Source: a virus | DNA: 64,000 bases | Direction: 5' to 3' (one strand) | Virus record (IMG/VR): IMGVR_UViG_3300020578_000006 | Coordinates: 1 to 64,000 of that record | Shown here: in pieces, positions 14,328-64,000 of the stretch | Layout: each line of letters opens with the position of its first letter | Position numbering within the stretch: position 1 is the stretch's first letter | Position numbers and translations under genes: made by a program | Notes under the pieces: generated by a model | What the model saw: the letters and a program-made list of their open reading frames with translations, nothing else | What the model was told of the DNA's origin: nothing | The model's database searches: none

Positions 14328-14333
14328 AAGATT

Positions 14334-14405: not shown

Positions 14406-14436
14406 ATATATATATTAATATATATTAAATAATACA

Positions 14437-14904
14437 ATGAAAAGAATAGAAGATGTTATTTTGGAAGCATCTACAGAGACAAAAGCTAAGTTGTATGTAC
14501 CGGCAAAGAAAGCTTTCGAAGCCCCAGATACAGGAGTAACAATCAATAAGCCAGCCGCATATAGAGTAATTAAAGATTGTGCTGAAACAACATTGCTCTT
14601 TTTACCTATAGAAATCTTTCTTAAATTTAAATCTCCAACTCAAGCGTTAAAGGGAAAATTTTCTAGAGAGCAAGTAATTGATCTCTATAACAGAACAACA
14701 ACAGATTCTGTTGCTAAGATTCTCTTTCAAACAATACTAGATACTTGCCCTAAAGCTCCCCCGCAATTAACCCCTACAAAAGCTGCTATAATAACAGATG
14801 TTGATATAGATGATCCTTACGACACATATGGAGACAATACACCCGCTCAAAGTGCTGAGACATCTAAATCGTTAGTTGATATAATTGTTTCGGCTTACTC
14901 TTAA
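14437..14904 (+). CDS. hypothetical protein (155 aa)
   Basis: N-terminus MKRIEDVILEASTETK loosely resembles the short tags on other late proteins. The middle is helical; the C-terminus is Asp/Pro/Thr rich (DVDIDDPYDTYGDN). Preceded by TTAAATAA, a late-type element. Ends convergently with the GT2-like gene (4-base overlap). Unknown; a virion role is possible. Confidence 0.55.
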   Translation: MKRIEDVILEASTETKAKLYVPAKKAFEAPDTGVTINKPAAYRVIKDCAETTLLFLPIEIFLKFKSPTQALKGKFSREQVIDLYNRTTTDSVAKILFQTILDTCPKAPPQLTPTKAAIITDVDIDDPYDTYGDNTPAQSAETSKSLVDIIVSAYS

Positions 14905-30926: not shown

Positions 30927-30934
30927 TATAAATA
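30927..30934 (+). promoter_or_regulatory. T4-type late promoter (TATAAATA)
   Basis: Exact TATAAATA, five bases before ATG 30940. The leftward gene 30224-30907 has a TTAAATAA within the same 32-base gap, making a divergent late promoter pair. Confidence 0.65.
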
Positions 30935-42632: not shown

Positions 42633-42640
42633 TATAAATA
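42633..42640 (+). promoter_or_regulatory. T4-type late promoter of the portal gene
   Basis: Exact TATAAATA, 11 bases before ATG 42652. No Shine-Dalgarno between. Confidence 0.7.
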
Positions 42641-47773: not shown

Positions 47774-48517
47774 ATGGCCGTAGCAACAATTTCTGTTAAT
47801 TTCGCAACTTTATCTGACGCACGCGCTGGTACTAGTACAGTAACAAGTATCAATCCCAAGCAGTTAAAAGATTTATTTAATAGCGCCAATAACATGTACG
47901 ATATTAGCGTTAAGAGCATTACAACAAACGGTAACGTTACAATTAATGGCACGGTAAATGCCTCTGCAGGATATGCAGGTAATTTTGTTGCTTCTGGAAC
48001 AATATCAGGCACAGGCTGGGCTGGTAATCTTGGAGTTACCGGTAATATTTCTGCTACTCAAGGGTGGAACGGTAATTTAACGGTCACAGGTAGTATTTTT
48101 GCTTCTAACGGATATGCTGGTACCCTCTCGGTAACAGGTAATATTCAAGCCACCCAAGATATCATTGCATATTATTCTGATAAAAGATTAAAAAACATTA
48201 GCGGTAATATTTCTGGTGCTCTAGAAAAAGTAAACAAGCTAAACGGCATATATTATACTAATAATGATGTGGCAAACTCTTTTGGCTATAATGATACAGA
48301 AAACAAAGTCGGTTTAATAGCTCAAGAGGTGAAAGAAGTTTTACCAGAATCCGTAAAACTAGCTCCGTTTGATTCAGACGGAAATAGTAAGAGTATTTCC
48401 GGTCAAAATTATTTAACTGTTCAGTATGATAAGATTGTTCCTTTACTTGTTGAAGCAATAAAAGAGCTTACAGCAAAAGTTAAAGATTTAGAAGCATCTA
48501 AGACGTTGGAGAAGTAA
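47774..48517 (+). CDS. tail fibre with S74 intramolecular chaperone
   Basis: 247 residues: N-terminal repeats NG-(Y/W)-(A/N)-G-(N/T)-L-(S/T)-VTG-(N/S)-I, then the S74 (endosialidase CIMCD) domain: YYSDKRLKNIS at 134-143 with the Ser-Lys catalytic pair, YYTNNDVANSFGY, VGLIAQEVKEVLPE and a coiled C-terminus. The chaperone trims itself after fibre trimerisation. A CATAAATA late-type element precedes ATG. Confidence 0.9.
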   Translation: MAVATISVNFATLSDARAGTSTVTSINPKQLKDLFNSANNMYDISVKSITTNGNVTINGTVNASAGYAGNFVASGTISGTGWAGNLGVTGNISATQGWNGNLTVTGSIFASNGYAGTLSVTGNIQATQDIIAYYSDKRLKNISGNISGALEKVNKLNGIYYTNNDVANSFGYNDTENKVGLIAQEVKEVLPESVKLAPFDSDGNSKSISGQNYLTVQYDKIVPLLVEAIKELTAKVKDLEASKTLEK

Positions 48518-48518
48518 C

Positions 48519-49280
48519 ATGCCGACAACCGGCAATAATCTGTCATTAAATCAGCTAGCAGCTGCTACAGGGCAAGCGGTTAAAGGTCTTTCTAATGCCG
48601 CTGGTGGAACAGGCCCAAATATAAATATATCACATTTTACGATCACCGGTGTTACAACCCCTACCTGGAATGTAGCTACTGTAGCTTATGGCGGCAATTT
48701 TACCGCGTCCGGTAATTTTTCAGGAGCAGGATCAAGATTTGGTAGAATAAGTTCAAGAGATGCAAATTTTACCTGGGGAACTACACCTGCAGGATCATCA
48801 GTGGTTTCAACAGCAGGCTTTCAAAGAACGTTTAACAACGCTTATAACCCAGGCGGCACATCATGTTCTTCCTCAGCGGTAAGAACTGTTACATTAAGAT
48901 TTAATGATGGGTTTAATGATGATGCAACAAATTATAATGCTACATTAGTAACCGGTAACATAACACTTTATTCGCCCCCAGCACCTTCTTTCTCTGTTAC
49001 AGGGAAAACACAACCCCCTCGACCTTGTAACACAGGCGGCGGTTGTGGAGGCTTATGTCGAGGAGCATCTATTTCTGTTAGTAGTACAGCAGGTAATTGG
49101 CAAGGTGTTGCCGGTGGTTCTGTAAACTACTATATTAATGGTGGGTTTGCCGGGTCTAACGGAGGAGGTGGGTTCACCTATACCAATCTTTGCGGTAACA
49201 CGTTATATTCGCTGTACGTGCAAAACTCTTATAGCTGTAATAGCAGTACACAAAACGTCACCACCCCAGCATACATTTAA
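48519..49280 (+). CDS. fibre-associated Gly/Ser/Thr-rich protein (253 aa)
   Basis: Two bases after the S74 fibre stop. Low-complexity beta-rich protein (NGGGFTYTNLCGN; NTGGGCGGLCRG), with paired Cys. Probably a fibre-tip or adhesin partner of the S74 fibre by position. Confidence 0.6.
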   Translation: MPTTGNNLSLNQLAAATGQAVKGLSNAAGGTGPNINISHFTITGVTTPTWNVATVAYGGNFTASGNFSGAGSRFGRISSRDANFTWGTTPAGSSVVSTAGFQRTFNNAYNPGGTSCSSSAVRTVTLRFNDGFNDDATNYNATLVTGNITLYSPPAPSFSVTGKTQPPRPCNTGGGCGGLCRGASISVSSTAGNWQGVAGGSVNYYINGGFAGSNGGGGFTYTNLCGNTLYSLYVQNSYSCNSSTQNVTTPAYI

Positions 49281-49314: not shown

Positions 49315-50253
49315 ATGAGCGTAGACTTAACCTTTTTTAAGTCAAATCCAAACAATATCTTAAGAGTCAAAAGAACAGGTTCATCAAGATCGCATGTAAT
49401 TATTGACTTTGTTAAGAATAACAAAAGCCTTCTTTCCGGAAAAGAATACAACGTTAAAGATTATGAAAGTATAATGTGTTATAGTGTAAGCCCTAATATA
49501 GATGAATTAAAATATTATTTAAAAAATAAAAAAAAGAACGACTATCTCGAACTTAATGATAAGCTCGATCACTTTTATATTGCACGTGCATTAAAACTAC
49601 CAATAGCAAAAATCTTGGAAAAAGATAAGGATAAAATAGTAAAAAGCTTTTATAAAATATACATTTCGTTTTTGAAGCAGTATTATGTAGAAGAGCAAGA
49701 TTTAAAGAGAATTAAAAAGACTGTTAGTAATATTAGTGATTTTTCCATATTACTTCAATATCTTCCGTATGACAGTGAATATAAGAATGGTAAGAAAAGA
49801 GTTATTGTATTAGACAGAATTCGCAAATGGCTTTATTCCTATTTTTACCCCGGTTGTCTTCCTTTTATTGAATTATATGATAAAGAGCTTATATGGGCGC
49901 AAAATATTATGCAAACACTTTTACCTTTAAATTTAGAGTATGCCTATCTTAATATAGGTAGTGGTATTAAATTTGATGAGGCTAAAGATATATGGAGAGG
50001 TCTTATTAGAAGCAAATACGAAACAGCTATTAAGCTTTTATCTGAAGAGGAAGCAGAAGCCAAGGAAATTGACGACCAGGAAACGATTTTAGAAATAAAT
50101 TTATTAAGAGAGAAGCTTAAGACTGTTGTTGAGGCTTTAAGGTTTGATTCAGTAAAAAGTATTCAAGAATTAATTATGTTTTGGCCAGAAGAGCTTTCAC
50201 CCGGGCCTCAAATTACTATTGACCCAGTTGGCCGGTCTTTAGTCTTTAGATAA
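49315..50253 (+). CDS. conserved phage protein, family member 1 (312 aa)
   Basis: Helical/charged; C-terminal block DIWRGLIRSKYETAIKLL ... SIQELIMFWPEELSPGPQITID resembles the C-terminus of 61444-62313 (IW-x-x-LI ... SIxExIxxWPxxLxPxP). Proteins ending in a similar WP-x-x-L-x-P-x-P motif occur in marine T4-like phages. Function unknown. Confidence 0.6.
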   Translation: MSVDLTFFKSNPNNILRVKRTGSSRSHVIIDFVKNNKSLLSGKEYNVKDYESIMCYSVSPNIDELKYYLKNKKKNDYLELNDKLDHFYIARALKLPIAKILEKDKDKIVKSFYKIYISFLKQYYVEEQDLKRIKKTVSNISDFSILLQYLPYDSEYKNGKKRVIVLDRIRKWLYSYFYPGCLPFIELYDKELIWAQNIMQTLLPLNLEYAYLNIGSGIKFDEAKDIWRGLIRSKYETAIKLLSEEEAEAKEIDDQETILEINLLREKLKTVVEALRFDSVKSIQELIMFWPEELSPGPQITIDPVGRSLVFR

Positions 50254-51618
50254 ATAGCCCTTAATTATATTAATTAATCCTTCCAGCATAGTTTTATAAG
50301 GCTCAGGGTAAAACAATAAACACTTTAAATATTCGATAATTTTCTTTAATTCTTGCTTTGATAATGTTTCTATACAAAACTCAGGTATGAGTACATCATT
50401 AGTATGATTAATTTTTTCCATTGATAGACCATTCCATACATATTCTTCTTTACCGTTTTCATGAATCCCTTTAATTCGACTCCCCAGGGGGCCATGTACA
50501 GTATTAATATATAAACGTAATTTGTTTTTAACACAAAAATCGACTATTCTATGGGTTTCATAAATATTTTGAATTAGCGGGCAAAACAGAAGCGAATATA
50601 ATCTATTAAGCGAAAGCAATTTTTCTATATTTTTTTGTACCATGTTAAAATTACCATTTTTTCTAATAAAATTATAATTAGATTCTGTTAAAGAATCTAT
50701 AGATAGCAATATACCCATATTGGGAAGTTTTGCAAATAAATCTTCTATTCTTTTGTTTAAAATAGAACCATTTGTAGTTACAAGAACAGATATATTTGGA
50801 TTAATTTCTGCTATACTATCCCATATTTTATAATATAAAGGTGTTAAAAACGGCTCACCGCCTAGAAAATTTGTCGTTGTTAAATGAGGTATAAATTCTT
50901 TAAGTTGATTGACAAAAGCATCATCATAGGGTGATATTAGTTGTGGTAGTTTTTCCCTATTTTTTCTTATAGAAGATGACCACTTTCCACCACACATAAT
51001 GCATTCGTAATTACAAACTGTTCCAAATTCAAAATCCATATTTACCGGCATATCATTGTATATACTAGAACGCCATGAATTAAACTTCTTAATTAATATA
51101 TTTTTGTTTAATGCAAGAATGCCTTTATAACACAAATCACAGCCTTTTGTAAAATCTAACTTAGATAATGCAGCTATTAAATCTTTTCTCTCTGTGCTAT
51201 TCCACATTTCTTTTATAGTTTTGTTGGGGTAGCTACCTAAGACATGCTGTCTATTATAACAGCATACATTGACATTTCCTGTAGAATCAAAATTAAGCGA
51301 TGTATATGGTGCACAGCAAATAGGAGGCTCTCTATGTATAATGTTTTCTTCTTTTAACACTTGTATGTTGGTTAGTAGTTTTTCCCTTTCAGATTCTCTA
51401 TAGAGATTATCTATTGCTGTATCTACAAACTCCTTATAGCCATAAGTGTCACACAACCACACAACAGTCTCAATAGGATTATCCACCTCATCAAGACTAC
51501 CGTCGTGCGGGTTAATTCTTACCGACATTGCTTTAAATTGCTCTGTAGAAAAAGGTGCTTGTCTTTCTTGTTTTATTGCTAAAAACAAATCAATTATTTT
51601 TTCTGGAAATTTAGACAT
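50239..51618 (-). CDS. radical SAM protein 1 with N-terminal SPASM/twitch region
   Basis: 459 residues. An unusual N-terminal auxiliary-cluster region (CC at 101-102, CC at 119-120, C160, C163; APYTSLNFDSTGNVNVCCYNRQ) precedes the radical-SAM core: CNYECIMC (C202, C206, C209) then FLGGEPFLTP. The core binds a 4Fe-4S cluster to cleave SAM. Such phage proteins ('twitch' type) are of unknown substrate. Paired with the GT8 gene, 8-base overlap. Confidence 0.85.
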   Translation of the reverse strand: MSKFPEKIIDLFLAIKQERQAPFSTEQFKAMSVRINPHDGSLDEVDNPIETVVWLCDTYGYKEFVDTAIDNLYRESEREKLLTNIQVLKEENIIHREPPICCAPYTSLNFDSTGNVNVCCYNRQHVLGSYPNKTIKEMWNSTERKDLIAALSKLDFTKGCDLCYKGILALNKNILIKKFNSWRSSIYNDMPVNMDFEFGTVCNYECIMCGGKWSSSIRKNREKLPQLISPYDDAFVNQLKEFIPHLTTTNFLGGEPFLTPLYYKIWDSIAEINPNISVLVTTNGSILNKRIEDLFAKLPNMGILLSIDSLTESNYNFIRKNGNFNMVQKNIEKLLSLNRLYSLLFCPLIQNIYETHRIVDFCVKNKLRLYINTVHGPLGSRIKGIHENGKEEYVWNGLSMEKINHTNDVLIPEFCIETLSKQELKKIIEYLKCLLFYPEPYKTMLEGLINIIKGYLSKD

Positions 51619-52432
51619 ATATCTTACTTTTTTCTACGTAACTATCAAAAATGTATTTTAGCTTGTTAATTATTAGTTTACTAGATGTTGCATTTTTTGT
51701 TATTTCATCCTTTACAAATTCTTCAAAACACTCTTCTGCTTTATCTGAATGCCACGGCTTAACAAAACCATGATATTGAATAATATGTGCATCTTTTAAG
51801 GATTGTACAGAGGCTATAGATGAAACCACATTATATTTTTGCGGAAGGTAGAATACATCACCGGCGAAACACACATTAAATACAGGCTGATCACTCGACC
51901 ATGATTTTTCGGATGCTAATTTTATTAAAGATTGCTTGTACTTAGGCTTTAAGAATTTTTTAGAAAATGACATTAAACCACAATTAAATCTTTTGCGATT
52001 TTGTTCTATTGGGCTGTTTGGCTCAATCTCAGGAATGCCTAAATATTTTTCACACGCAGAAAACAAATGTTTATCTTCCCATAGCTCCTTAATATCATTA
52101 AGAAATACCATATCACTATCAAATATAATAATACGATCATACCCTAAATTCCCCATCTCAAATACATCAAATCTGTAGTATAAATTATATCCCCATTTTT
52201 GGGTAGTAGGTAGGCACCCACTATAATCATTATTCTTAGCATTAATAACAATAATGTTTTTATAAATTTTTTTAAGTGTTAAAATATTTTTTTCTGATAA
52301 ACTACCATCTGATAACAATATTATATCACCATCGAACCATGGATTACTTTCTTTTAAACTAATCAAAAAAACTTTCATACTAAGCACAAAACTATCGTTA
52401 AGAGCCAATAACATAGCAATCTTTTTATTCAT
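51611..52432 (-). CDS. GT8-family glycosyltransferase 1
   Basis: 273 residues: AMLLALNDSFVLSMKVFLISL, RFDVFEMGNLGYDRIIIFDSDMVFLNDI (DSD metal motif), FNCGLMSFSKKF, SDQPVFNVCF and YHGFVKPWH. These are GT8 hallmarks (LgtC/glycogenin group; retaining galactosyl- or glucosyltransferases). A relative is at 63039-63839. Confidence 0.9.
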   Translation of the reverse strand: MNKKIAMLLALNDSFVLSMKVFLISLKESNPWFDGDIILLSDGSLSEKNILTLKKIYKNIIVINAKNNDYSGCLPTTQKWGYNLYYRFDVFEMGNLGYDRIIIFDSDMVFLNDIKELWEDKHLFSACEKYLGIPEIEPNSPIEQNRKRFNCGLMSFSKKFLKPKYKQSLIKLASEKSWSSDQPVFNVCFAGDVFYLPQKYNVVSSIASVQSLKDAHIIQYHGFVKPWHSDKAEECFEEFVKDEITKNATSSKLIINKLKYIFDSYVEKSKIYV

Positions 52433-52471
52433 TAATAAATAATTTAGTCAAAAACAATTTTATTTCAATGT

Positions 52472-53356
52472 ATGCCTAAAATATCTATAGTAATGCCAGT
52501 TCGCAATAACGAACAGTATTTAGATGAATCAATACAGAGTATTCTAAATCAGACAGAAAAGGACTATGAATTTTTAATATTTGCCGATAGATGTAATGAA
52601 GTAACACTATTTAAACTCTCTCAATACAAAGACAGTAGAGTTAAAATCATTTCTAACCCTAGCATAAAGGGCATTACAGACTCGTTAAACTTTCTTATAT
52701 CTAATGCATCGTCTAATATAATAGCCAGACAGGATGCAGATGACATTTCTTCTTTAGATAGACTAAAAATATTTTTTGACGAAAATCAAAAAACTCATCT
52801 TACTACTAGTAATTTTTTTATTAAAGTAGACAATCAATTAACTTTACAAAAAAAATCTAATCTTCACGTTGTAAATTTGTTTAATTTTTTATTTTTCTAT
52901 AATTTTGGAGCCCATGGGCAGTTATTCTTTAATAAACAGTTTTATAATTCACAATTTAAATATTGTCAAGATTATGAACTCTGTAGTAGTATTTTAAGAG
53001 AGAATTTTAAAGATTTTTATTTGATTGAAAAACCGATCTATACGTATAGAAAGCATAACAATTCTATTTTTAATAATCACCGGTCAAAACAAGTTTATTT
53101 CTCTCTTTTAACATCTCAAGAAAATATTAGGCATTTTTTAGGCCTTAATCCACCTCTCTGTAAAGTAAAAGATATGCGTAACTTTTTCTTAGAACATAAG
53201 AAGCCTGTACATACTAGCGAGACACTCTTTTTATCGATGACAAAGACTATACTTGAAAGATTTAAAAGTCTTTTTTGTTCTTCTGATATAGAGAAAAATG
53301 CAGTAGACGAAACATATTACAAAGCCTATAATTCTACTTTTATTAAATCACAATAA
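52472..53356 (+). CDS. GT2-family glycosyltransferase
   Basis: 294 residues: KISIVMPVRNNEQYLDESIQSILNQ, YEFLIFADRC, RQDADDIS (D-x-D), HGQLFFNKQFY, YCQDYELCSSIL. Classic GT-A inverting fold. Nucleotide-sugar unknown. Confidence 0.9.
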   Translation: MPKISIVMPVRNNEQYLDESIQSILNQTEKDYEFLIFADRCNEVTLFKLSQYKDSRVKIISNPSIKGITDSLNFLISNASSNIIARQDADDISSLDRLKIFFDENQKTHLTTSNFFIKVDNQLTLQKKSNLHVVNLFNFLFFYNFGAHGQLFFNKQFYNSQFKYCQDYELCSSILRENFKDFYLIEKPIYTYRKHNNSIFNNHRSKQVYFSLLTSQENIRHFLGLNPPLCKVKDMRNFFLEHKKPVHTSETLFLSMTKTILERFKSLFCSSDIEKNAVDETYYKAYNSTFIKSQ

Positions 53357-54015
53357 ATCTTTTGCAATTTTGAAAATATAAATTCTTTATCTCTTTCGGA
53401 AAAAACTACAGTCTTATGTTTTAAATTGATGCTAACTAACCATTTTCTAACCGTAGACTGAATATTTAGATCTGCAGGAAGATCGACCTCAAATACATTC
53501 TTCTGTCTGGTTTTTGTAATTATTTTATATTTTGCTATAGCAAGCAGTTTACCCTCTTCATTTAATATTGTTAACTCTTTATCAAATATAAGATTATAAT
53601 GGGAATAAAAATTATAATGATTGTTATTAAATTTATAATTTCTTATAATTTTATTTGCATATATGGAGGGAATATAATCTAGATTATTAGTTAGAAAACC
53701 TCTTTCGTAACTTCTTATTATCTTAAAGAACTTTCCACTATTTTCCAAGCAGTCTTTGTGTGACTTACCGCACGTTATATAAATTTTATTATTTTTATTA
53801 AATCTTATAGCAGCACACTTGATGTAAATTTTTTCATTATTCATTTTTTCATAATCTGGATCTGAAAAGTTTGGCATTAGAATAATGCCGTGCTTGGTTT
53901 TATAGGGTTCGTCCCATATTTTGGTCGAACGTAAAGGCTTAGGGTCTATACTATTGAGTAATTCATAGTAATCACCACTCTTTATTGCGTTTTGTCTTTT
54001 AATTAATAAATTCAT
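53326..54015 (-). CDS. hypothetical protein in glycan/rSAM island (229 aa)
   Basis: MNLLIKRQNAIKSGDYYELL start; contains YIKCAAIRFNKNNKIYITCGKSHKDC and many strands. No family recognised. Convergent overlap (31 bases) with the GT2 gene. Divergent from GT31 two bases away. Confidence 0.55.
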   Translation of the reverse strand: MNLLIKRQNAIKSGDYYELLNSIDPKPLRSTKIWDEPYKTKHGIILMPNFSDPDYEKMNNEKIYIKCAAIRFNKNNKIYITCGKSHKDCLENSGKFFKIIRSYERGFLTNNLDYIPSIYANKIIRNYKFNNNHYNFYSHYNLIFDKELTILNEEGKLLAIAKYKIITKTRQKNVFEVDLPADLNIQSTVRKWLVSINLKHKTVVFSERDKEFIFSKLQKIYCDLIKVEL

Positions 54016-54016
54016 T

Positions 54017-54772
54017 ATGAGACCGCTAGTATTGATATTTACCTGTAAAAAATATATTTATAGGTGTAAAGATATACAAGAAACTTGGGGCCATGACCTT
54101 AAAAAAAATAATATAGATTACTTTTTTGTTAGTGGTGACAATCTCGATATAGAGCCATATCTAAATATAGATTTTAAAGAAAGCTATGAACAACTTCCAC
54201 AAAAAACATATATTACTTTTAATAGAGTAAAAGATTTAAATTATACCCACTTTATTAAGACAGATGACGATACATTTTTTAACGTTATTTCGTTTTTAAA
54301 AGAGCTAAACAGCTTATCAAATTTTGACTACATAGGTAAGTTTAACAAGCAAACTTCAGCTTCTTCAAAAATTCATTATTTTAAATGTAATGATTCTTTT
54401 AAAATTCCCAAACGTATATCTAAATTTTCTTATGCAGAGGGGGGTTTTTATATTTTAAGCAAAAAAGCACTAAACTATATTTGTGCTCAAAAAGAAAGTA
54501 CATTCGTCAATAAACCTACATCCTATAAGGGGGAGGATGTTTTAGTGGGTAGCATACTAAAGAATAAAGTAAAATCATTAGACATTAAAAATAACAACTC
54601 AGAAAAATTTAATATGGATCTAACTTTGTTCTCTCTTCACCCTGTAGATACTAGCATATTCAAACAGCTATACAAAAAAACCTTTAATTCTCAATTAAAA
54701 ATCTTACAACAAAATCAACTTCTAAACGAATATAATATTAGAGATAAATTCTTGGCAAATCTTAAACCTTGA
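54017..54772 (+). CDS. GT31-like glycosyltransferase (galactosyltransferase type)
   Basis: 251 residues: PLVLIFTCKKYIYRCKDIQETW, FIKTDDDTFFNV (DDD metal motif), FSYAEGGFYILSKKALNYI, YKGEDVLVGSIL (ED-x-x-x-G). These are signatures of beta-1,3-galactosyl/GlcNAc transferases (GT31), best known from eukaryotes and uncommon in bacteria. Compact compared with eukaryotic members. Acceptor unknown. Confidence 0.8.
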   Translation: MRPLVLIFTCKKYIYRCKDIQETWGHDLKKNNIDYFFVSGDNLDIEPYLNIDFKESYEQLPQKTYITFNRVKDLNYTHFIKTDDDTFFNVISFLKELNSLSNFDYIGKFNKQTSASSKIHYFKCNDSFKIPKRISKFSYAEGGFYILSKKALNYICAQKESTFVNKPTSYKGEDVLVGSILKNKVKSLDIKNNNSEKFNMDLTLFSLHPVDTSIFKQLYKKTFNSQLKILQQNQLLNEYNIRDKFLANLKP

Positions 54773-56150
54773 AAAAATCTTCCGGTAGCTTCTTACAAAA
54801 GCCTACTTTTTCATAAATTTCTTTACCCGCCGTATCCACGTCCACAAAAGGAAATTGCCGCTCTAACATATATTGTCTTTGAGGCTCTTTAAAATTATTG
54901 TATTTTGATTTATCTAGCCAAAGCGTTTCCTGCCATAACTTTTTATCGAGATAGGGATATCTTACCTCTATACCATGGACTCCACAGCAATACTCACAAG
55001 AATAAGGATTATTATCATCATAATCTATAACACCATTAATATCCTTAAGCCTTTTAAATAGCTTATTAATACCCTTAAAGCCAATGGCATCTCCACCTAA
55101 GCCGGATAAACAAATCTTATATCCTTCTTTTTTTGCTTTTAAAAAAATAAGACCGGCCCCTATAAACCCATAAGTCTCTCTACATACATATCCTACAAAT
55201 TTATTTTTATAAAAATCAAAGTGAGTATAGGCATAGTCCTCGACATTTTTAAAAATTTCATCTCGAGTAATCTCATGCATACTATCTGTAGGGTCGATAA
55301 GCTCTTTATTGACAATATTAGGTATTAAAATCTGTTTTCCTTCTATGATAGGTGGATTTTTAGTACTCAATCCATGGCGCCATAATAAAACATTAGACGG
55401 CTTTTCTAATACATTGACGGAATAAGCTTTAAAAGGAAGGTTATACTTTAACAGGGCGCTGCAAATAGCTCCGCTATCATACCCCTCACTAACACCCATA
55501 AAAATTTTTTTAGAAGCAGCAACAGTTCTTTTCAATATACTTTCATCAAACGCCATTTTCCAATCATCTAAATTAACTTTGTGTTCATTATCTAAATCAA
55601 AAGCTGTTATTTTATTTAATTTTATATTATCATTGCTTATATCGTATGTGTAATAATAATTTCCATATACGTGAAAAATTTCTTTATACCCTAATACAGA
55701 CAGTGCGCTCTTATATGAAGCTATACCTATTGTATTATTATGAATACTAAAAAATATAGGCTTAGTACCGAAAGTGTCAGAGCCAAAAATTAATTTCTTT
55801 TTTTTCTTATCTAACAAAACGATAGTAAATTCACCATCAAGATATTTAAAAAATTCTGCTCCATACTCTTCATATGCTTTGATTATACTTTCTCCATCTG
55901 ATAGACTATCAGGGGTAATGTCTTTATAATTATATATTTCACCATTGAAAACCATTATGATGTCACCACATTTAGAAATAAGTGGTTGAGGGGTCAAGTC
56001 TCCGGTAATACTTAGTAAATTATGTATAAAGTGAAAGCCGCTTTCGTTTTTATAAGAAGTTAAATCTGGTCCTCTAAATTTTTGATAGAAATTGGCGGCA
56101 TTTAAAACTTCTTCGGATGTATCTTTATTTGTGACCAAAAAACTACACAT
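54762..56150 (-). CDS. asparagine synthetase-like amidotransferase (AsnB family)
   Basis: 462 residues: Cys2 nucleophile (MCSFLV), FNGEIYNY, DTFGTKPIFF (class II glutaminase), then the synthetase half with an altered P-loop VSEGYDSGAI instead of SGGLDSS, and LSGLGGDAIGF. AsnB-type enzymes amidate carboxylates; members in secondary metabolism modify other acids. Shorter than E. coli AsnB (554 aa). The altered loop suggests another substrate or reduced activity. Confidence 0.85.
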   Translation of the reverse strand: MCSFLVTNKDTSEEVLNAANFYQKFRGPDLTSYKNESGFHFIHNLLSITGDLTPQPLISKCGDIIMVFNGEIYNYKDITPDSLSDGESIIKAYEEYGAEFFKYLDGEFTIVLLDKKKKKLIFGSDTFGTKPIFFSIHNNTIGIASYKSALSVLGYKEIFHVYGNYYYTYDISNDNIKLNKITAFDLDNEHKVNLDDWKMAFDESILKRTVAASKKIFMGVSEGYDSGAICSALLKYNLPFKAYSVNVLEKPSNVLLWRHGLSTKNPPIIEGKQILIPNIVNKELIDPTDSMHEITRDEIFKNVEDYAYTHFDFYKNKFVGYVCRETYGFIGAGLIFLKAKKEGYKICLSGLGGDAIGFKGINKLFKRLKDINGVIDYDDNNPYSCEYCCGVHGIEVRYPYLDKKLWQETLWLDKSKYNNFKEPQRQYMLERQFPFVDVDTAGKEIYEKVGFCKKLPEDFFKV

Positions 56151-56200
56151 AAAATATTTATACAGTAGTATAAAAAATAAAAACTACAGGTAAATAAAGC

Positions 56201-57355
56201 ATGCTTGATAAAAATTTATGTATTTTGCCATGGATTTCGCTTTATATAAGAGCGGACGGCAATATTTATCCCTGTGAAAGTGTAGCCTGGCAAGGAGACG
56301 ACTACTTACTTGGTAATCTAAACACAACAACACTAGAGGAAGCTTGGAACCACGATATGATGAAGAAGCTTCGGCTTAAAGTTATTACCAATTCTACATG
56401 CGAACTGTCTAATGAAGAGAAAAATTCTTGCATGTACCTTATAAATCATTCTCTTTATGAAGACGTATATAAAAATTACAAAAACGAAACAAAGTCAGAC
56501 GGAAGTTATAAAGTTGATATAAAAGCATTATTTTTAGAAAGATCCAATCTTTGTAATCTTCAATGTTTATATTGTTGTGATGTTAGTAGCTCTAGCTGGG
56601 AGCGAAAAAATAAAACCAATATAATGAAAATTAGTGATACTGTTTATGATTTAAAAGTGCTACCTATAACAAACAATCTTAGAGAATTATTTTTATCTGG
56701 CGGTGAACCGGTTATTAACAAATACAATAAAAAACTCTTACAACATTTAATTAACCATAATCCAAATATAGAATTAGGAATGGCAACGAATTTAACTTAT
56801 AATTTTGAACTATATGAAGAGTTTTTTAGTTTATTAGAAAAATTTAATAATACTAAAGTTTTTTGTAGTGTAGACAGCTCAGAAACTCGACACGATTTTA
56901 TTAGAATCAACTCAAATTGGAATACCGTAAAAACCAATTTAAATAAACTTAAAAACTATAAAGTAAGAATATATTTTAATAGTGTTATATCTTTATTAAG
57001 TGCTTTCTACTTAAAAGAATTTCACGAAACTTTAATTAATATGAAGATAATAGGCATTGACGGTATTCGATATATTAATTTGACTGGTCCAGAAGAACTT
57101 TGTATACAGTCGCTTTCGTTTAATAAGAAAAAAGAACTTAAAGAGTATCTTATTAGCTACATTAATTTTTTAAAAGAAAATGAAAATTTATCTAATAATA
57201 TAGATTTATATCCAAACAATAACAAGCCTTCTCAGGCTGCAGACAATATAATAAAATTTTTATTTAAAAAACTAGGTAATAATAATTATATAGACAATTT
57301 GTCTAAATTTGTATCTATAGATACTATTAAAAAACACTTTGACAGATTACTCTAA
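56201..57355 (+). CDS. radical SAM protein 2 with N-terminal SPASM/twitch region
   Basis: 384 residues. N-terminal CILPWISLYIRADGNIYPC (C7, C25), LGNLNTTTLEEAWN, C67, C77; radical-SAM core CNLQCLYC (C118, C122, C125) then LFLSGGEPVIN. Same inverted order as radical SAM protein 1. Late-type GTAAATAA precedes ATG. Substrate unknown. Confidence 0.85.
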   Translation: MLDKNLCILPWISLYIRADGNIYPCESVAWQGDDYLLGNLNTTTLEEAWNHDMMKKLRLKVITNSTCELSNEEKNSCMYLINHSLYEDVYKNYKNETKSDGSYKVDIKALFLERSNLCNLQCLYCCDVSSSSWERKNKTNIMKISDTVYDLKVLPITNNLRELFLSGGEPVINKYNKKLLQHLINHNPNIELGMATNLTYNFELYEEFFSLLEKFNNTKVFCSVDSSETRHDFIRINSNWNTVKTNLNKLKNYKVRIYFNSVISLLSAFYLKEFHETLINMKIIGIDGIRYINLTGPEELCIQSLSFNKKKELKEYLISYINFLKENENLSNNIDLYPNNNKPSQAADNIIKFLFKKLGNNNYIDNLSKFVSIDTIKKHFDRLL

Positions 57356-57592
57356 AATATCGCCATAATTTTTGGAATAAGAAAAAATACTTCCAAAAAA
57401 CTTTTTTTGATTAAAATTATAATAGGCTATAAATTCTTTATCTTCAGTGGTGTAATTAATTGCAAAGATATTTTTACCTAGAACACTTTTGTAGAAATTG
57501 CCGCTAATTTTTTGTTTTGTGCTTATTTGTTCGGCTAAAAAAGTACCATTATCATTTAAATTTATTATCTCATCTCTTGTCTTAAATACCAT
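57347..57592 (-). CDS. hypothetical protein (81 aa)
   Basis: MVFKTRDEIINLNDNGTFLA start, beta-rich, ends SIFSYSKNYGDILE. Nine-base convergent overlap with radical SAM protein 2. A CTAAATA-like late element precedes it. It may be a small partner or substrate of the radical SAM protein (speculative). Confidence 0.45.
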   Translation of the reverse strand: MVFKTRDEIINLNDNGTFLAEQISTKQKISGNFYKSVLGKNIFAINYTTEDKEFIAYYNFNQKKFFGSIFSYSKNYGDILE

Positions 57593-57614
57593 AAACGTAT
57601 TTAGATGTATATCA

Positions 57615-57642
57615 TTGATTACAACTAGGTTTATATTATAAT
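57615..57642 (+). promoter_or_regulatory. sigma70-like promoter for the PIG-L gene
   Basis: -35 TTGATT (57615-57620), 16-base spacer, -10 TATAAT (57637-57642), six bases to ATG 57649. Confidence 0.7.
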
Positions 57643-57648
57643 TAATTT

Positions 57649-58317
57649 ATGGTCAAAACTATGGTTATAGTTCCTCATGGAGATGATGAAATATTAGGCT
57701 TTTATGGGGCTATAAAAAGAAATTTAGAGCAGAACAATCATGTTAGTGTTGCGTTTATTATGGGGCCTAAGAACCTAACTAACGAAAGGAACACTCATCA
57801 ATTTCACACTATAGAAAAAGTTAAAGATAAGTTAGGTTATAACGAGGTGTTTTATCTAGATATTTTTAACGAACACAATATTCATTCAAATAAGCTCGAG
57901 CTCATCACAAGAATAGAAGAACTTGTATCTAATAATCATATAGATATCGTTTACACCACCCACTGGGGTGACAACCATCAAACACATAAATTATGCTATG
58001 AAGCGGTTGTTGCAGCCATAAGACCTATAGGGCCATGTAAAGCATCGAGACTAATTACAGGGGAGATTATATCCTCTACAGATCAAGCCCCGCAAACAGA
58101 AGCACATAGCTTTATCCCTAATATATTTTTGGAATTGTCCGAACAAGAAATAGAGGAAAAGATTAATCTTTTGAAAATGTATGAATATGAATATATGCAA
58201 ACCCCTCACCCTAGATCTGAGTGGGGGCTAAAAGCGGTAGCTAGCTTTAGAGGTATACAAGCAGGTGTTAAATACGCTGAAGGATATTTTTGTGCAAGAG
58301 AAATCATTAAAAAATAA
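57649..58317 (+). CDS. PIG-L/LmbE family deacetylase
   Basis: 222 residues: IVPHGDDEILGFYG (zinc motif H-x-D-D, 10-13), YNEVFYLDIF, THWGDNHQTHKL (the H-x-D-H-x-x-T/H block) and SSTDQAP. The family removes acetyl groups from N-acetylglucosamine-like sugars or mycothiol-type precursors. Own early promoter, unlike the neighbours. Confidence 0.85.
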   Translation: MVKTMVIVPHGDDEILGFYGAIKRNLEQNNHVSVAFIMGPKNLTNERNTHQFHTIEKVKDKLGYNEVFYLDIFNEHNIHSNKLELITRIEELVSNNHIDIVYTTHWGDNHQTHKLCYEAVVAAIRPIGPCKASRLITGEIISSTDQAPQTEAHSFIPNIFLELSEQEIEEKINLLKMYEYEYMQTPHPRSEWGLKAVASFRGIQAGVKYAEGYFCAREIIKK

Positions 58318-59527
58318 CATAGAACAAATTGTAAATCAAAAGCATTTTTGTATTTTACCGTGGGTACATTTATATCATTTTACTGATAAAAAAGTATATC
58401 CATGCCCTGTTATGGGTGCATGGGGAGTCAACTCATTAGGCAACACTTCTGATGATATAGAAAAATTATGGAATAGTGAGCATCTTAAAGAGATAAGACG
58501 CAAGATGCTTAACAACGAAGCAATACCTTTTTGTAATAGAAACTGTAATGATTCTATAAACTCGTGCAAAAGACATTTTGGATTAGAGCTCATAGACAAG
58601 GCATCCTCAGCCATTCTAAATACCAAGCCTGATGGAAGTGTCGACCCTATAAACTTTATTGCGTGGAATATTATAGAATCAAACAAATGCAATTTTAAAT
58701 GTAGTTATTGCAATGTAAAATACTCTAATCGATTTGGTGAAAAATTAGAGACGTTCTCAGATACAGAGGCCATGAAGGATAAGATATTTCCATATCTTGA
58801 TAATATAGAAGAACTTTGGCTAGCATCTGGGGAGTCAGCCATACAAGACAGCTATTATGATATTCTAGAAGAACTTATTACAAGAAACCGTACAGATATA
58901 AGATTGTTTTTTATCACTAATATGAGTGTTGTAAATTATAAAGGTAGAAATATTTTTGAAATACTGAGCAAATTTAAAAATGCAGTAATATTTGGAAGTA
59001 TAGATGATAGGGAATCTAGACTTGAATACATAAGGTTTGGAAGTTCTTACAGTAAGATATTAGAAAATAGAATAGAGCTTTTAAAATATCCTAGTATTAA
59101 GTTTTACTTGCAACCTGTAATTAGTATATTTAATATTTTCTCTTTTCCAGATTTTCATAGAGATTGGTATAATCGAGGTCTTATAGGGGCTGACGAAGTA
59201 AGATATTATGTATTAGATTCTCCTTCATATCTTCAAGCCAACATTTTGCCTTTAAAATATAAAAACAAACTTTTAGAAAAATGGCGCGGCTATCAACAAT
59301 GGATAAAGGACAACTTAACTGATAAGGTAGATACATACCCTAACAGATGTAACCCCGTTAACTTTATTGACACACTTATAAACCATATAAGCGTACCAAA
59401 AGATAATTTAGAGCTACAGCATTTTTTTACTTTTATAGATGAAAATGATAAAAAGACCGGGCTTGCTTTTAATAATGTTTTTAATGAATATGGAGATATC
59501 AAATGCATTTCAAAGAAATATTTTTAA
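58292..59527 (+). CDS. radical SAM protein 3 with N-terminal SPASM/twitch region
   Basis: Start set at GTG 58292 (a longer frame from 58265 overlaps the PIG-L gene by 53 bases). 411 residues: CILPWVHLYHFTDKKVYPC (C20, C38), LGNTSDDIEKLWN, C81, C85, C92, core CNFKCSYC (C133, C137, C140), LWLASGESAIQ. Closest to radical SAM protein 2 in layout. It follows the deacetylase and leads directly into 59503-60345. Confidence 0.85.
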   Translation: MQEKSLKNNIEQIVNQKHFCILPWVHLYHFTDKKVYPCPVMGAWGVNSLGNTSDDIEKLWNSEHLKEIRRKMLNNEAIPFCNRNCNDSINSCKRHFGLELIDKASSAILNTKPDGSVDPINFIAWNIIESNKCNFKCSYCNVKYSNRFGEKLETFSDTEAMKDKIFPYLDNIEELWLASGESAIQDSYYDILEELITRNRTDIRLFFITNMSVVNYKGRNIFEILSKFKNAVIFGSIDDRESRLEYIRFGSSYSKILENRIELLKYPSIKFYLQPVISIFNIFSFPDFHRDWYNRGLIGADEVRYYVLDSPSYLQANILPLKYKNKLLEKWRGYQQWIKDNLTDKVDTYPNRCNPVNFIDTLINHISVPKDNLELQHFFTFIDENDKKTGLAFNNVFNEYGDIKCISKKYF

Positions 59528-60345
59528 ATTTTTATAATTCTTTACCCATACAAAAGTTTATTAAGAATATTAATAATATTGGTAGGGGGGTTAAAGATAT
59601 TAATCAAACAGGGTTTCCCTCTAAGCTTTCTACACTAATATCTTTTAACTTTAAAGAAAATAAATTACTAAATTTTAAGATCTATTGTGAAATATTTAGA
59701 AAATTTAAAAAGTACGAAATCTTAAAGTTCTTACCAACAGACAAAGACTTTAACTACTATTTTAGTTATTGGGACAACACCCTTTCATCTAGCCTTTGCT
59801 TTGGTATAAAAGTAGACAAAGACCATCTACCCACTCAATATTTTCATATTAAATTAAACCGTGTAATAAAAGAATTTACAGAGTGTAAAATTTATAAGGA
59901 AAGGCCAACTTTTAAGAGAACGGGCATTTCATTTGAGTATACTGGTTCTTCTGTTAAAAAGAAATACTATTTTTACTTTACGGAAAGTGATGACATAGAG
60001 TATTTTAAGCAAAAATATAATCTAACATTAGACGGGGGGTGTATTGATCATATAGAATTTACAGAATTTGATAACGGTGATCAAAAAATAATAGTAGTAT
60101 ATTCATATAAAAACGAGGCTGCTTACTCTAATATTCAAAAAACTTTTTTTCATCATACTTTAATTAAAGACTGTGTAGAATACTTTACCCAAGACCACGA
60201 CCTCTTACCTTGTTACTTCGGTGTCTATAAAAACAATACAATTGCACTGTATTGGAGCGTTACAGAAAAAGAATTAAAAAATGTAGTAAATATAGATCCG
60301 CTAGCCTTTAAAAATAAATTAGAAAAATTACTCGATAAAGTATGA
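59503..60345 (+). CDS. hypothetical protein (280 aa)
   Basis: Overlaps the end of radical SAM protein 3 by 25 bases and the amidinotransferase start by four, so part of one operon. Alternating strands and aromatic residues (FSYWDNTLSSSLCFGIKVDKD; FYFTESDDIEYF; CVEYFTQDHDLLP). No family recognised; may be a transferase or binding protein. Confidence 0.55.
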   Translation: MHFKEIFLNFYNSLPIQKFIKNINNIGRGVKDINQTGFPSKLSTLISFNFKENKLLNFKIYCEIFRKFKKYEILKFLPTDKDFNYYFSYWDNTLSSSLCFGIKVDKDHLPTQYFHIKLNRVIKEFTECKIYKERPTFKRTGISFEYTGSSVKKKYYFYFTESDDIEYFKQKYNLTLDGGCIDHIEFTEFDNGDQKIIVVYSYKNEAAYSNIQKTFFHHTLIKDCVEYFTQDHDLLPCYFGVYKNNTIALYWSVTEKELKNVVNIDPLAFKNKLEKLLDKV

Positions 60346-61436
60346 AATGTGTTAATAGCTATAATGAATGGGATCCTTTAGAGGAGATTATTGTTGGTAA
60401 TGGATTTCCAGCAGATCTTCCTTCAGATGATCTGGGGTTTAAATTCTTTTTTCATGATAATCTTTTAGGACCAGATGGCGCATTATATGCAGGAAGATGG
60501 TATTTAGAAAAGAGATATATTGAAGAATTAAGAGAGGATTTAGAGTCATTTGTCAATATTTTAAAACAAAGAAATATTACTGTAAGAAGGCCTAAGGAAC
60601 CTGCAGGACCTCATGAAGTGAAAACGCTTTGTTGGTCATCAAGCAACTATCCTGCTCTCAATGTTCGAGATCTTACACTAGTAGTAGGTAATGAAATAAT
60701 AGAAACATCTGTATTGGCACGGTGGCGTCAATTTGAAAACGATTATCTTAAGCATTTATTCTTAGACTACTTTAAGAGAGGGGCTAAATGGACGGCTGCC
60801 CCAAGGCCCTTAAGTACTGATAAGTCTATAGATTATTCTAGAGTAGAGCAAACACCAGAAATAAAAAAGTATTATGATACTCTTAAACAACAAGAACATA
60901 GTAATCTAGATTGTGGGGTAGAGATAATGTTTGATGCAGCAAATTGTATTAGAATGGGCAACACAATAATGTTTAACGCGCCAACTGAACATGAGAGATT
61001 GGGCGCAGAGTGGCTACAGAGACATCTAGGTAAAAAATATAAAGTATGGACCGTTAATATATTTGATAACCATATAGATTCTTTATTTCTTCCTATTCGC
61101 CCGGGGTTAGCAATCTTAACCCTCCCCATAAAGCACAAATTGCCTGAGCCACTAAGAAAATGGGATATTGTCTATGTTCCTTCTTTACTAGAGCCGCACA
61201 AAACCCCTGATTATATGCCTATTGCATCAGAGAAAATATTTTGTAACCTGCTCTCTCTTTCACCGAACGAAGTCATATGTCAGCCAGAATATTATGATAT
61301 TTTATCTAAAAGGCTAAAACCATTTAAAGTAGAGGTAACACCAAACAGATTAAGACATAGTCGATTATTTGGTGGAGGACATCATTGTCTCACACTGGAT
61401 ATAAGAAGAAAGGGCAAATTAGAAAATTATTTCTAA
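60342..61436 (+). CDS. glycine/inosamine amidinotransferase-like enzyme
   Basis: 364 residues: EWDPLEEIIVGNG, ALNVRDLTLVVGNEIIET, IMFDAANCIRMG (Asp198), DNHIDSLFLPIRPGL (His244), RLFGGGHHCLTLDIRR (Cys349). The Asp-His-Cys triad and spacing match L-arginine:glycine amidinotransferase, which moves the amidino group of arginine to an amine. Substrate may be glycine, inosamine or another amine. Shares an operon with radical SAM protein 3. Confidence 0.9.
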   Translation: MKCVNSYNEWDPLEEIIVGNGFPADLPSDDLGFKFFFHDNLLGPDGALYAGRWYLEKRYIEELREDLESFVNILKQRNITVRRPKEPAGPHEVKTLCWSSSNYPALNVRDLTLVVGNEIIETSVLARWRQFENDYLKHLFLDYFKRGAKWTAAPRPLSTDKSIDYSRVEQTPEIKKYYDTLKQQEHSNLDCGVEIMFDAANCIRMGNTIMFNAPTEHERLGAEWLQRHLGKKYKVWTVNIFDNHIDSLFLPIRPGLAILTLPIKHKLPEPLRKWDIVYVPSLLEPHKTPDYMPIASEKIFCNLLSLSPNEVICQPEYYDILSKRLKPFKVEVTPNRLRHSRLFGGGHHCLTLDIRRKGKLENYF

Positions 61437-61443
61437 TTAATAT

Positions 61444-62313
61444 ATGCTCTACAAGTTGGCACAAAAACTATCCTTAAGGGGAATTATTATAAAAATTAGT
61501 TTTATTAATAATGGTATTGCTATCTTTAGAACTGTTTGTAATAGTAAGCATGCAGACTTATTTGGGTTGAAAGGTTCAGATTCTGAATTTACAGATATTA
61601 TTACAGAGCAGCCCGTAGAGTTCGATGAAAACTCTGTTACATGTCTAGAGTATCTTTATGTTCCTAAGCATATTTTTTTAGATGATTTTGAAAAAAATAC
61701 CGAATATACAAATTTATTTGGGGAAGATTTTCTTATAAAGAGTAAACATTATATCGAAACTACAACTAAAAAAATTCAAGAAGAGCGGGCCAGATTTATA
61801 ATGTACTCTTCCGAACAACTAGAACCTTGCAACCGATTTTCTAATGATTTGCTAGATGATTATTATTATATGAAGTTTTACCCTGAAAAGCGAGATAATA
61901 TTTCAAGAGAAATTGTTTATGATAAAATTAAAGAAGATATTATTAAAAAGTACTTTCTTATTAAGGATTCTGATAATAGAAAAATAAAAGGAGCTTTTAG
62001 AAGGCTTGGTATTACAAACGCTGCAGAGCAAATAAACGATCCAGATTATATTAATGCGTTTAAGAATATATGGTATAGCCTTATAGAAGAACAAAAAGAA
62101 GAGCAACTCTTACAGTTGGATACGGCCAAACAAAATATTCTAAAAGCCGAGGGTGTTGATAAAGAGGATTTTTTACAGCAATGTGATATACTTGAATTAA
62201 TGATCAAACAAATAGATAAAACTGTTCTATTAGGTTGTAATTCTATCAGTGAAATTATTAAAACCTGGCCCAGCTATCTTCAACCTGAACCATATTACAT
62301 AGACAATGAGTGA
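61444..62313 (+). CDS. conserved phage protein, family member 2 (289 aa)
   Basis: Helical, charged. C-terminal block NIWYSLIEEQKEEQLL ... SISEIIKTWPSYLQPEPYYID resembles 49315-50253. Overlaps the GT32 gene by eight bases. Unknown; the paired copies flank the island. Confidence 0.6.
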   Translation: MLYKLAQKLSLRGIIIKISFINNGIAIFRTVCNSKHADLFGLKGSDSEFTDIITEQPVEFDENSVTCLEYLYVPKHIFLDDFEKNTEYTNLFGEDFLIKSKHYIETTTKKIQEERARFIMYSSEQLEPCNRFSNDLLDDYYYMKFYPEKRDNISREIVYDKIKEDIIKKYFLIKDSDNRKIKGAFRRLGITNAAEQINDPDYINAFKNIWYSLIEEQKEEQLLQLDTAKQNILKAEGVDKEDFLQQCDILELMIKQIDKTVLLGCNSISEIIKTWPSYLQPEPYYIDNE

Positions 62314-63052
62314 AACAATTAACTTCTTCTGGTTAGGAGACAAGCTTGGATTATTAGAGCAGCTATCATTGAAGTCATTTTTAGACCATGGACATAAAAC
62401 AATTCTATGGGCTTACAATATCAAATGCCACGGGGTGCCTTCAGGTGTCATTGTTAATAATGCTAATGAAATACTTTCCGAAGATCGAATATTTAAATAT
62501 ACCGGTAACGGCGATTGTCGTGTAAATAGTATCGGTGGGTTTTCTGACTTATTTAGATATTATCTTTTGAATAAAGTTGGCGGGTGGTATTGTGATATGG
62601 ATGTTACCTGTCTAGCCCCTTTCAATAATATTAATCAGGAGTATGTTATAAGACCTCATAAAAATACTAAAATTGTTGGTAATATCCTTAAGACCCCTAA
62701 CAATAATAGTTTTCTAGAAGATTGTATAGCTGAAACCGAAAGACTTGTCGATAAGGATAACGATAGATGGATTAAACCATTAGAGATATTAAGAGATTGC
62801 GTATACAAGCACGGTATTGATAAGTTTATTGTTCAAAAAGATTGGTTTGGTAATGATGATATTGAGGAGATAAGAAAAATGTTAAACATAGGAGTATTCA
62901 CCAAATATATTAATTTACCTAAGTATGCTATTCATTGGTGTAATGAGGCAATTTCTACTGGTCGCTGGGACTATTCTATAAAGCGAGATTTTAATAAACC
63001 ATTGCCTACTACTCTATTTTATAACCTATTAAAAAAACATGAACTCTTGTAA
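62306..63052 (+). CDS. GT32-type glycosyltransferase
   Basis: 248 residues: TINFFWLGDKLGLLEQLSL, SIGGFSDLFRYYLLNKVGGWYCDMDVTC (D-x-D), VIRPHKN, and YAIHWCNEAIS. Matches the Gly_transf_sug/GT32 fold like 2596-3291 but without its Q-x-W start. Substrates unknown. Confidence 0.85.
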   Translation: MSETINFFWLGDKLGLLEQLSLKSFLDHGHKTILWAYNIKCHGVPSGVIVNNANEILSEDRIFKYTGNGDCRVNSIGGFSDLFRYYLLNKVGGWYCDMDVTCLAPFNNINQEYVIRPHKNTKIVGNILKTPNNNSFLEDCIAETERLVDKDNDRWIKPLEILRDCVYKHGIDKFIVQKDWFGNDDIEEIRKMLNIGVFTKYINLPKYAIHWCNEAISTGRWDYSIKRDFNKPLPTTLFYNLLKKHELL

Positions 63053-63839
63053 TATAGCGTTTGTAACTACGTTAAGCGATGATTTTTTGCCTGGAGCGGT
63101 TGCAGCAATTAAAAGCCTCATTAAAAATACCCCTACATTTAGCTACCCTATAATAATCTTAGAGTGGGGAGGCTTATCTGATTATAATAAAAGCTTACTT
63201 AAGAAAATATATAAAAATATTTCTTTTAAACATGTAGACTCTAATAACTACCCTGAGTATCAATCCGGTGAAAATAGAGTTTGGAATTATAATTTTAACT
63301 ATAGATATGATATATTTTTACTCGATAAATTTGATAGGATAATTTTCTTTGATTCTGATATAATTTTTAATATAGATATATCCAAATTGGCTAAGATAAA
63401 ATGTAATTTTGGTGCTGTTCCAAGGTCTAGAGGGACTAATGTTCAGATAGGAAAAAGACCGGGGTTTAATGCCGGCTTAATGATTATTGGGAAGAAGTTT
63501 TTAAATAAAGAAACCCGGGATAGTTTAATAAAGCTTTCTAAGCAGCCAGCTATTTTGGATATCCGTGTAAAAAAACAATTATGGATAGGAAATGAGCCCA
63601 TTCTAAACAATTTCTTTAAAACATTTACCAAATTACCAAAAAAATATAACTTGTGTATAGATGATATAAAGCCAAAAATTAATTTACTAGACTATAATAT
63701 ACATTATATTGGTAAACGTAAGCCGTGGAATAATTCTATAGATAGTTACGCCACTAACAAATTAGCATCAAAATACGGACAGTTCTTTGCAGTTCTTACG
63801 TCTAAAAAGCTTGTTAATTTATATAAAAAGTATACTTAA
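63039..63839 (+). CDS. GT8-family glycosyltransferase 2
   Basis: 266 residues: IAFVTTLSDDFLPGAVAAIKSL, RYDIFLLDKFDRIIFFDSDIIFNIDI (DSD), GFNAGLMIIGKKFL, NEPILNNFF and YNIHYIGKRKPW. Same plan as 51611-52432, lower identity. Overlaps the GT32 gene by 14 bases. Confidence 0.9.
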   Translation: MNSCNIAFVTTLSDDFLPGAVAAIKSLIKNTPTFSYPIIILEWGGLSDYNKSLLKKIYKNISFKHVDSNNYPEYQSGENRVWNYNFNYRYDIFLLDKFDRIIFFDSDIIFNIDISKLAKIKCNFGAVPRSRGTNVQIGKRPGFNAGLMIIGKKFLNKETRDSLIKLSKQPAILDIRVKKQLWIGNEPILNNFFKTFTKLPKKYNLCIDDIKPKINLLDYNIHYIGKRKPWNNSIDSYATNKLASKYGQFFAVLTSKKLVNLYKKYT

Positions 63840-63842
63840 TAT

Positions 63843-64000
63843 ATGGAACTAGATGATATATTAGCGTTTTTTAATGAAGATGCTTTATGCCCAGAAAACA
63901 TTAAAAATTGTAGATCTCTTAGAGATGCTTACTTTAAAGAGTACAATGGCCTTTTAAACAAAAAATGTGAACATTGTACTTTAGTATCCTTGAGAGACAA
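63843..64000 (+). CDS. hypothetical protein with CEHC motif, partial
   Basis: ATG 63843, running off the right edge. 52 residues visible (MELDDILAFFNEDALCPENI ... NKKCEHCTLVSLRD). A CxxC knuckle and another Cys pair suggest a small metal-binding protein. Unknown. Confidence 0.5.
   Translation, partial: MELDDILAFFNEDALCPENIKNCRSLRDAYFKEYNGLLNKKCEHCTLVSLRD

Follow-up and report, generated by a model that had tools for sequence, protein, structure and literature searches.

The first 64 kb of the 229,717-base IMG/VR record IMGVR_UViG_3300020578_000006, referred to below as the window, contain an island of tailoring enzymes (positions 50239–63839) that begins right after a tail-fibre tip gene and two fibre-adjacent genes. 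At about even confidence, we read it as a late-expressed, modular glycan-tailoring island in the tail-fibre, or host-recognition, region of a T4-like jumbo phage. Computed directly were the enzyme inventory with its intact motifs, the association with tail fibre genes and with a protein family that we call c17, the gain and loss of tailoring genes around a core of glycosyltransferases (GTs) and a PIG-L family deacetylase, and late-promoter-like boxes. The island's probable role is to furnish either the fibre or the host surface with an unusual glycan that may carry guanidine.

Judged by its genes, the record is the genome of an uncultured T4-like giant or jumbo phage (a T4-like myovirus). Its homologue of the portal protein gp20 (42652–44466) matches 2,524 phage records, with annotation as T4-like portal proteins for the top matches, and two tail-tube genes further along the record support this membership. 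The island region is flanked by a portal/exonuclease/dCMP-deaminase region and by nrdA/nrdB-like genes. Megablast of the region against phage records gave no match.

Gene content, layout and promoter boxes

The island is anchored by the gene of an S74 long tail-fibre tip (47774–48517, + strand), which carries a C-terminal endosialidase-type intramolecular chaperone (PF13884, E = 7e-12) and matches many PHROG tail-fibre families (best E = 1e-28). It is followed by a Gly/Ser/Thr/Asn-rich adhesin-like protein (48519–49280, +) that has no family match but that, from its position and composition, may be an acceptor or a receptor-binding tip, and by the fibre-adjacent copy 1 of c17 (49315–50253, +). 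The second copy of c17 (289 aa, 61444–62313, +) lies inside the island; both were assigned by alignment. The family has a conserved C-terminal helical hairpin and a WPxxLxPxP motif, with a structural model that is confident only at residues ~217–300. Its position and WPxxLxPxP tail hint at a tail-fibre chaperone. Identity with a known one was considered and rejected, as there is no family, PDB or cultured-phage match and the low-confidence model has no significant match either.

All enzymes named in the original prediction (three radical SAM proteins, two GT8s, GT2, GT31, GT32, AsnB-like, PIG-L and amidinotransferase) were confirmed. The three radical SAM proteins have an intact CxxxCxxC motif and an N-terminal SPASM/twitch region. 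The twitch proteins rSAM2 (56201–57355, +; PF04055, E = 2e-13) and rSAM3 (58265–59527, +), the listed start of which overlaps the PIG-L gene, exceed the NF033640 cutoff with E values of 3e-58 and 2e-71, whereas the twitch/SPASM protein rSAM1 (50239–51618, −; PF04055, E = 6e-14; PF13186, E = 7e-7) stays below it (E = 7e-45). DxD/DDD motifs are present in the glycosyltransferases, which are GT8a (51611–52432, −; PF01501, E = 1.5e-18; DxD), GT2 (52472–53356, +; PF00535, E = 3e-17), a GT31 or Fringe-like enzyme (54017–54772, +; PF01762, E = 3e-13; PF02434, E = 9e-7), a GT32-type enzyme (62306–63052, +; PF04488, E = 1e-9) and GT8b (63039–63839, +; PF01501, E = 3e-20). The PIG-L family N-deacetylase (57649–58317, +; PF02585, E = 1e-13) keeps its zinc ligands, with HxDDE and H113 invariant across 13 phage relatives.

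The AsnB-like glutamine amidotransferase/ligase (54762–56150, −; PF13537, E = 4e-20; TIGR01536, E = 6e-35, below cutoff) starts with MC, thereby keeping Cys1, and has an unusual PP-loop, SEGYDS. Its relatives in two of the phage loci described below, L199 (12407–13705) and L200 (8541–9941), start with MSS/MSG and have lost the glutaminase cysteine; to go by sequence, these may use an amine other than ammonia. The L200 AsnB-like gene is directly coupled to the ABBA-fold gene. The remaining genes of the island encode the amidinotransferase, a 280-aa protein with a predicted ABBA barrel, a 229-aa protein (53326–54015, −) that has no family match but a homologue in L199, and an 81-aa product of an open reading frame (ORF) confined to copies of this phage (57347–57592, −).

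In a scan of the whole record, made in pieces, all three over-cutoff radical SAM genes and both GT8 genes fall within the island, and the island copies of PIG-L, AsnB-like, GT31 and amidinotransferase genes are the only ones. A GT32-like gene lies far outside the island (2596–3291, −). Directly downstream is a UDP-glucose-dehydrogenase-like gene (record positions 64024–64797).

The original prediction described single genes on alternating strands, with their own promoters, as if added one by one. Alternation holds in the left half (50239–57592, strand order − − + − + − + −) but not at 57649–63839, where seven genes, most of them overlapping, form one series on the + strand (PIG-L, rSAM3, the 280-aa protein, the amidinotransferase, c17 copy 2, GT32 and GT8b). 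Every intergenic gap inside the island is ≤56 bp. As for promoters, a TATAAATA-like box (≥7/8 positions, 4–6 bp before the start codon) was sought throughout the record and found at 45 of its 277 ORFs; at other distances the count is about one per position. The exact box stands before tail-tube genes, among others, and 11 bp ahead of the portal gene. Within the island, the box precedes the AsnB-like gene (exact, 56155–56162, −, 4 bp before the ATG), the PIG-L gene (TATAATTA, 4 bp) and the 81-aa ORF (TCTAAATA, 5 bp), and just outside it the S74 fibre gene (CATAAATA, 6 bp). The idea of individual promoters is thus partly borne out, by the late-promoter-like boxes of these three island genes and by that of the 229-aa gene, which has TATAAATA 39 bp upstream. 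In relatives, the box is found at the S74 fibre gene (L018), at the 280-aa gene and GT32 (L199), and at the AsnB-like and radical SAM genes (L200).

If this box corresponds to the late box of T4, the island would be expressed together with virion genes. A late box favours decoration of the virion over an early role in superinfection exclusion, without proving it. Examples of the box, which looks like a leaderless late-promoter signature, lie at 30927–30934 (+) and 42633–42640 (+); it is also enriched in loci L026–L035, and not in L038–L060, Campylobacter phage CP220 or Synechococcus phage S-SCSM2R. Among the papers that a literature search listed, none combined TATAAATA and leaderless.

Co-occurrence, gain and loss in related phages

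Phage loci were collected around homologues of the amidinotransferase, termed AGAT below, and reciprocally around PIG-L. The 19 distinct close AGAT loci all contain glycosyltransferases and c17; radical SAM genes are present in 18, PIG-L in 17 (the two exceptions being truncated contigs) and a DegT aminotransferase in 14. Among 43 distinct PIG-L loci, 38 contain glycosyltransferases, 31 c17, 31 radical SAM genes and 22 AGAT, compared to a single locus with a glycosyltransferase and none with c17, radical SAM or AGAT in a comparison set of 25 distant PIG-L phage loci. The association of the enzyme set is real in both scan directions and not due to chance: whether AGAT or PIG-L serves as the anchor, the genes appear as companions and not as unrelated insertions that fail to co-occur.

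The comparison of related loci also supports gene-by-gene gain and loss, as the one-by-one addition of genes had implied. The tail fibre, c17, GT8/GT32/GT31, PIG-L and often the UDP-glucose-dehydrogenase-like gene are kept, while the amidinotransferase, AsnB-like enzyme, DegT aminotransferase, ABBA-like gene, Trp halogenase and radical SAM genes are gained, lost, moved or flipped. A block of epimerase, PIG-L, DegT aminotransferase, RmlD-like reductase and AGAT genes recurs in many relatives. Loci L207–L216 have no AGAT and mostly contain c17, GT32, GT8 and PIG-L together, most of them also the UDP-glucose-dehydrogenase gene and DegT; L199 and L200 have most of the window set, with AGAT absent from the record stretches examined. 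Gene orientation ranges from fully collinear (L020–L022) to alternating (window, L199). Of the AGAT-positive PIG-L loci, 17 contain DegT and 5 the 280-aa gene; none has both and none lacks both. This split follows two clades and may reflect a single event.

The same island type contains a tryptophan-halogenase-like FAD enzyme and a PhyH oxygenase in L021/L022 (12507–14701). Half-length (about 206 aa) DegT/StrS aminotransferase-like proteins that keep the Lys region form a cluster (L033, 8585–9208, and 30 homologues) often found near phage amidinotransferases. Single phage records can have many radical SAM matches: 19 in that of L073 (256 kb) and 11 in that of L062 (340 kb).

Amidinotransferase and predicted ABBA-fold protein

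The AGAT/StrB1-type amidinotransferase (60342–61436, +) is a pentein that has no Pfam or NCBIfam match but that phmmer aligns end to end with StrB1 (1bwd, E = 4e-47) and human AGAT (1jdw, E = 2e-45). The catalytic Asp-His-Cys set shared with these enzymes is intact (D198, H244, D246 and C349 are invariant), and the window protein differs from them in belonging to a clade of its own: in a tree of 142 amidinotransferases it falls inside an all-phage clade of 18 with 98% support. Identity is 45–63% within this clade and ≤37% to bacterial proteins. The same gene combination, which the original prediction had suggested looking for in bacteria, was not seen around the 80 nearest bacterial amidinotransferase genes, where gene calling was imperfect and missed some genes in high-GC contigs. 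We rejected a bacterial source for the entire set, given that the closest bacterial amidinotransferases share ≤37% identity and, in the loci retrieved, are not accompanied by the other genes. Four actinomycete relatives join the tree in a position that may be a long-branch effect. These relatives, from Streptomyces, Kitasatospora and Peterkaempfera (L097–L100, ~5000–14800), lie in a different, conserved and natural-product-like cluster; judged by eye, it also encodes a TauD-like oxygenase and another pentein-like protein.

The gene of the 280-aa protein (59503–60345, +) overlaps that of AGAT by 4 bp. Its AlphaFold2 model (pLDDT 60.7 and pTM 0.65, both moderate) is a ten-stranded barrel with the ABBA strand order. 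The top 15 Foldseek matches in the PDB are all ABBA prenyltransferases, the best fold matches being the cyanobactin peptide prenyltransferases PirF (6pgm, E = 1.6e-6, probability 1.00) and LimF. Identity to the window protein is 20–28% for four relatives, 43% for L199 and 30% for L200, and K59, Y61, K103, H115, K117, S143, E145, Y156, Y158, E185, K195 and Y250 are invariant in eight divergent relatives. The invariant Lys, His and Tyr residues alternate along the predicted strands of the model, as the lumen of a diphosphate-binding barrel would need, and may face inward. The predicted barrel and Lys/Tyr strand pattern resemble those of the ABBA prenyltransferases PirF, LimF, PatF and AutF, but no sequence homology was detected to PDB chains or to TIGR04445 proteins (NCBIfam; hhalign, six members). 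Sequence thus does not place it in the LynF/TruF/PatF family (TIGR04445), there being no NCBIfam match and an empty hhalign comparison with the six members.

The cyanobactin enzyme AutF, which has the ABBA fold, attaches prenyl groups to the guanidine moiety of arginine and homoarginine (PMC9609003), and this makes AGAT a suggestive neighbour of an ABBA-fold gene. Since the two genes overlap and the AutF/AgcF fold can prenylate guanidines, it is conceivable, though distinctly unlikely, that the phage transferase prenylates an AGAT-made guanidino group on receptor-binding fibres or their glycan. As a caveat, the ABBA-like gene is also found without AGAT in L199 and L200, and an obligate pair of AGAT and ABBA protein was rejected for the same reason. 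If this modification did occur, a glycan or protein of the virion would be both lipidated and guanidinylated, and the enzyme would apparently be the first phage ABBA prenyltransferase; no paper on such enzymes in phages was found in the open-access literature.

Target of the island and its place among known systems

We propose the following model for the island. A short glycan would be built by GT31, GT32, GT8 and GT2, and its deacetylation by PIG-L would create a free amino sugar. AGAT would then move an amidino group from arginine to this amine, or to one made by DegT in relatives, to give a guanidino sugar. The UDP-glucose-dehydrogenase-like gene would supply a uronate that the AsnB-like enzyme could amidate, and the twitch radical SAM and ABBA-fold proteins would add further marks. 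A cytosolic phage protein, namely the adjoining tail fibre or adhesin, comes close to an even chance of being the acceptor; the chief alternative is the host envelope. A cytosolic acceptor is favoured because the island has no clearly membrane-spanning protein, although the lipopolysaccharide (LPS) core is also compatible with this.

Several points weigh against this model. The promoter argument assumes that TATAAATA denotes late expression, as in T4. LPS-core glycosyltransferases also have no membrane spans. The AGAT scores for StrB1 and glycine AGAT are only a few bits apart, and a sugar amine is not separable by sequence from glycine, lysine or another small amine as a putative substrate. 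No DegT-type sugar aminotransferase was found in the phage's own record, and there are no cultured relatives.

Were the host surface the target, LPS or capsule would be altered during infection to keep competing phages, or progeny once released, from adsorbing. This is somewhat unlikely. In its favour, LPS core synthesis typically involves GT8 enzymes, the UDP-sugar dehydrogenase, epimerase and aminotransferase genes of relatives are classic O-antigen genes, and the same function was proposed for such islands in pelagimyophages (PMC7029224). It is opposed by the late-type boxes, by the constant companionship with the tail fibre and c17, and by the results of a simple hydropathy analysis, in which the island showed no strongly hydrophobic protein such as a flippase or bactoprenol transferase. 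This last point, together with the missing family matches for the GtrA flippase and GtrB bactoprenol transferase, led us to reject a gtr seroconversion cassette. Glycosylation could also be one mark of several: SPASM/twitch radical SAM, AsnB-like and ABBA-fold enzymes and, in L021/L022, the Trp halogenase and PhyH hydroxylase would then modify amino-acid side chains, either on the fibre or on a ribosomally made peptide. Such enzyme classes are common in peptide tailoring, the fold matches are to PirF and LimF, AutF acts on the guanidine of arginine or homoarginine (PMC9609003), and L022 has the halogenase and PhyH. We nevertheless consider it unlikely, given that there is no conserved short precursor gene: no gap exceeds 56 bp, and only this phage has the 81-aa ORF. 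Twitch radical SAM enzymes can, moreover, also act on aminocyclitol sugars, as BtrN does. A cluster for a ribosomally synthesized and post-translationally modified peptide was rejected on the same grounds, as the 81-aa ORF was not found in L018, L020–L022, L199 or L200.

The original prediction had left open a decorated glycan or a guanidinylated or amidated small molecule, and the glycan fits better because the stable companions are glycosyltransferases and tail-fibre genes. A diffusible product or auxiliary metabolism (e.g. guanidinoacetate), with the nearby glycosyltransferases being coincidental, is very unlikely: AGAT homologues elsewhere do make such compounds and a metabolic benefit was proposed for CP220 by Timms et al. 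(PMC2853527), but here phages can do without AGAT and still keep the other island genes. Glycosyltransferases and radical SAM proteins are also known from phage DNA-hypermodification pathways. Such a cassette is highly improbable here, where the genes adjoin the fibre and not replication genes, and a 5-hydroxymethyl-pyrimidine pathway was rejected as PF00303 (thymidylate synthase/hydroxymethylase) is absent from the 229.7-kb record and from the 217-kb record of L022.

The island is of the same kind as two described clusters. The pelagimyophage host recognition cluster (Zaragoza-Solas et al. 2020, PMC7029224) is a large non-syntenic island in T4-like phages with tail fibres, GT8, UDP-glucose 6-dehydrogenase and radical SAM cassettes that are gained and lost; the window likewise comes from a T4-like myovirus genome, and its variable island combines GT8 and radical SAM genes with tail fibres. 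That cluster was defined between VrlC and gp14, neither of which was identified here, and the text of the paper names no amidinotransferase or asparagine synthase, whereas AGAT, PIG-L, AsnB-like, DegT/RmlD and ABBA-fold genes recur in the islands studied here. Campylobacter phages CP220 and CPt10 (Timms et al. 2010, PMC2853527) have several radical SAM, amidinotransferase and nucleotide-sugar transferase-like genes in a cluster swapped between close phages, but the CP220 AGAT is only 30% identical, the genes are collinear, and homologues of PIG-L, the AsnB-like enzyme and the 280-aa protein were not found there. The glycosyltransferase cluster of S-SCSM2R also has neighbouring genes for AGAT, radical SAM, a half-length DegT and several glycosyltransferases; it differs in having other family members, many 2-oxoglutarate oxygenases and a distant AGAT.

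Three features are new here: the AGAT/PIG-L/AsnB/DegT set that recurs together with c17 and the fibre, the candidate for an ABBA fold, and the evidence for late promoters. Small, compact enzymes for tailoring sugars and peptides would also be available from the island. Tailoring genes cluster beside phage adhesins in several T4-like lineages, where they may mark the host, the virion or something else, and the promoter class and constant companions provide testable pointers to the virion in this case. If this is true, phages would vary their binding surface not only by mutation of the fibre but also by swapping enzymes that add unusual groups, such as guanidino and possibly prenyl.

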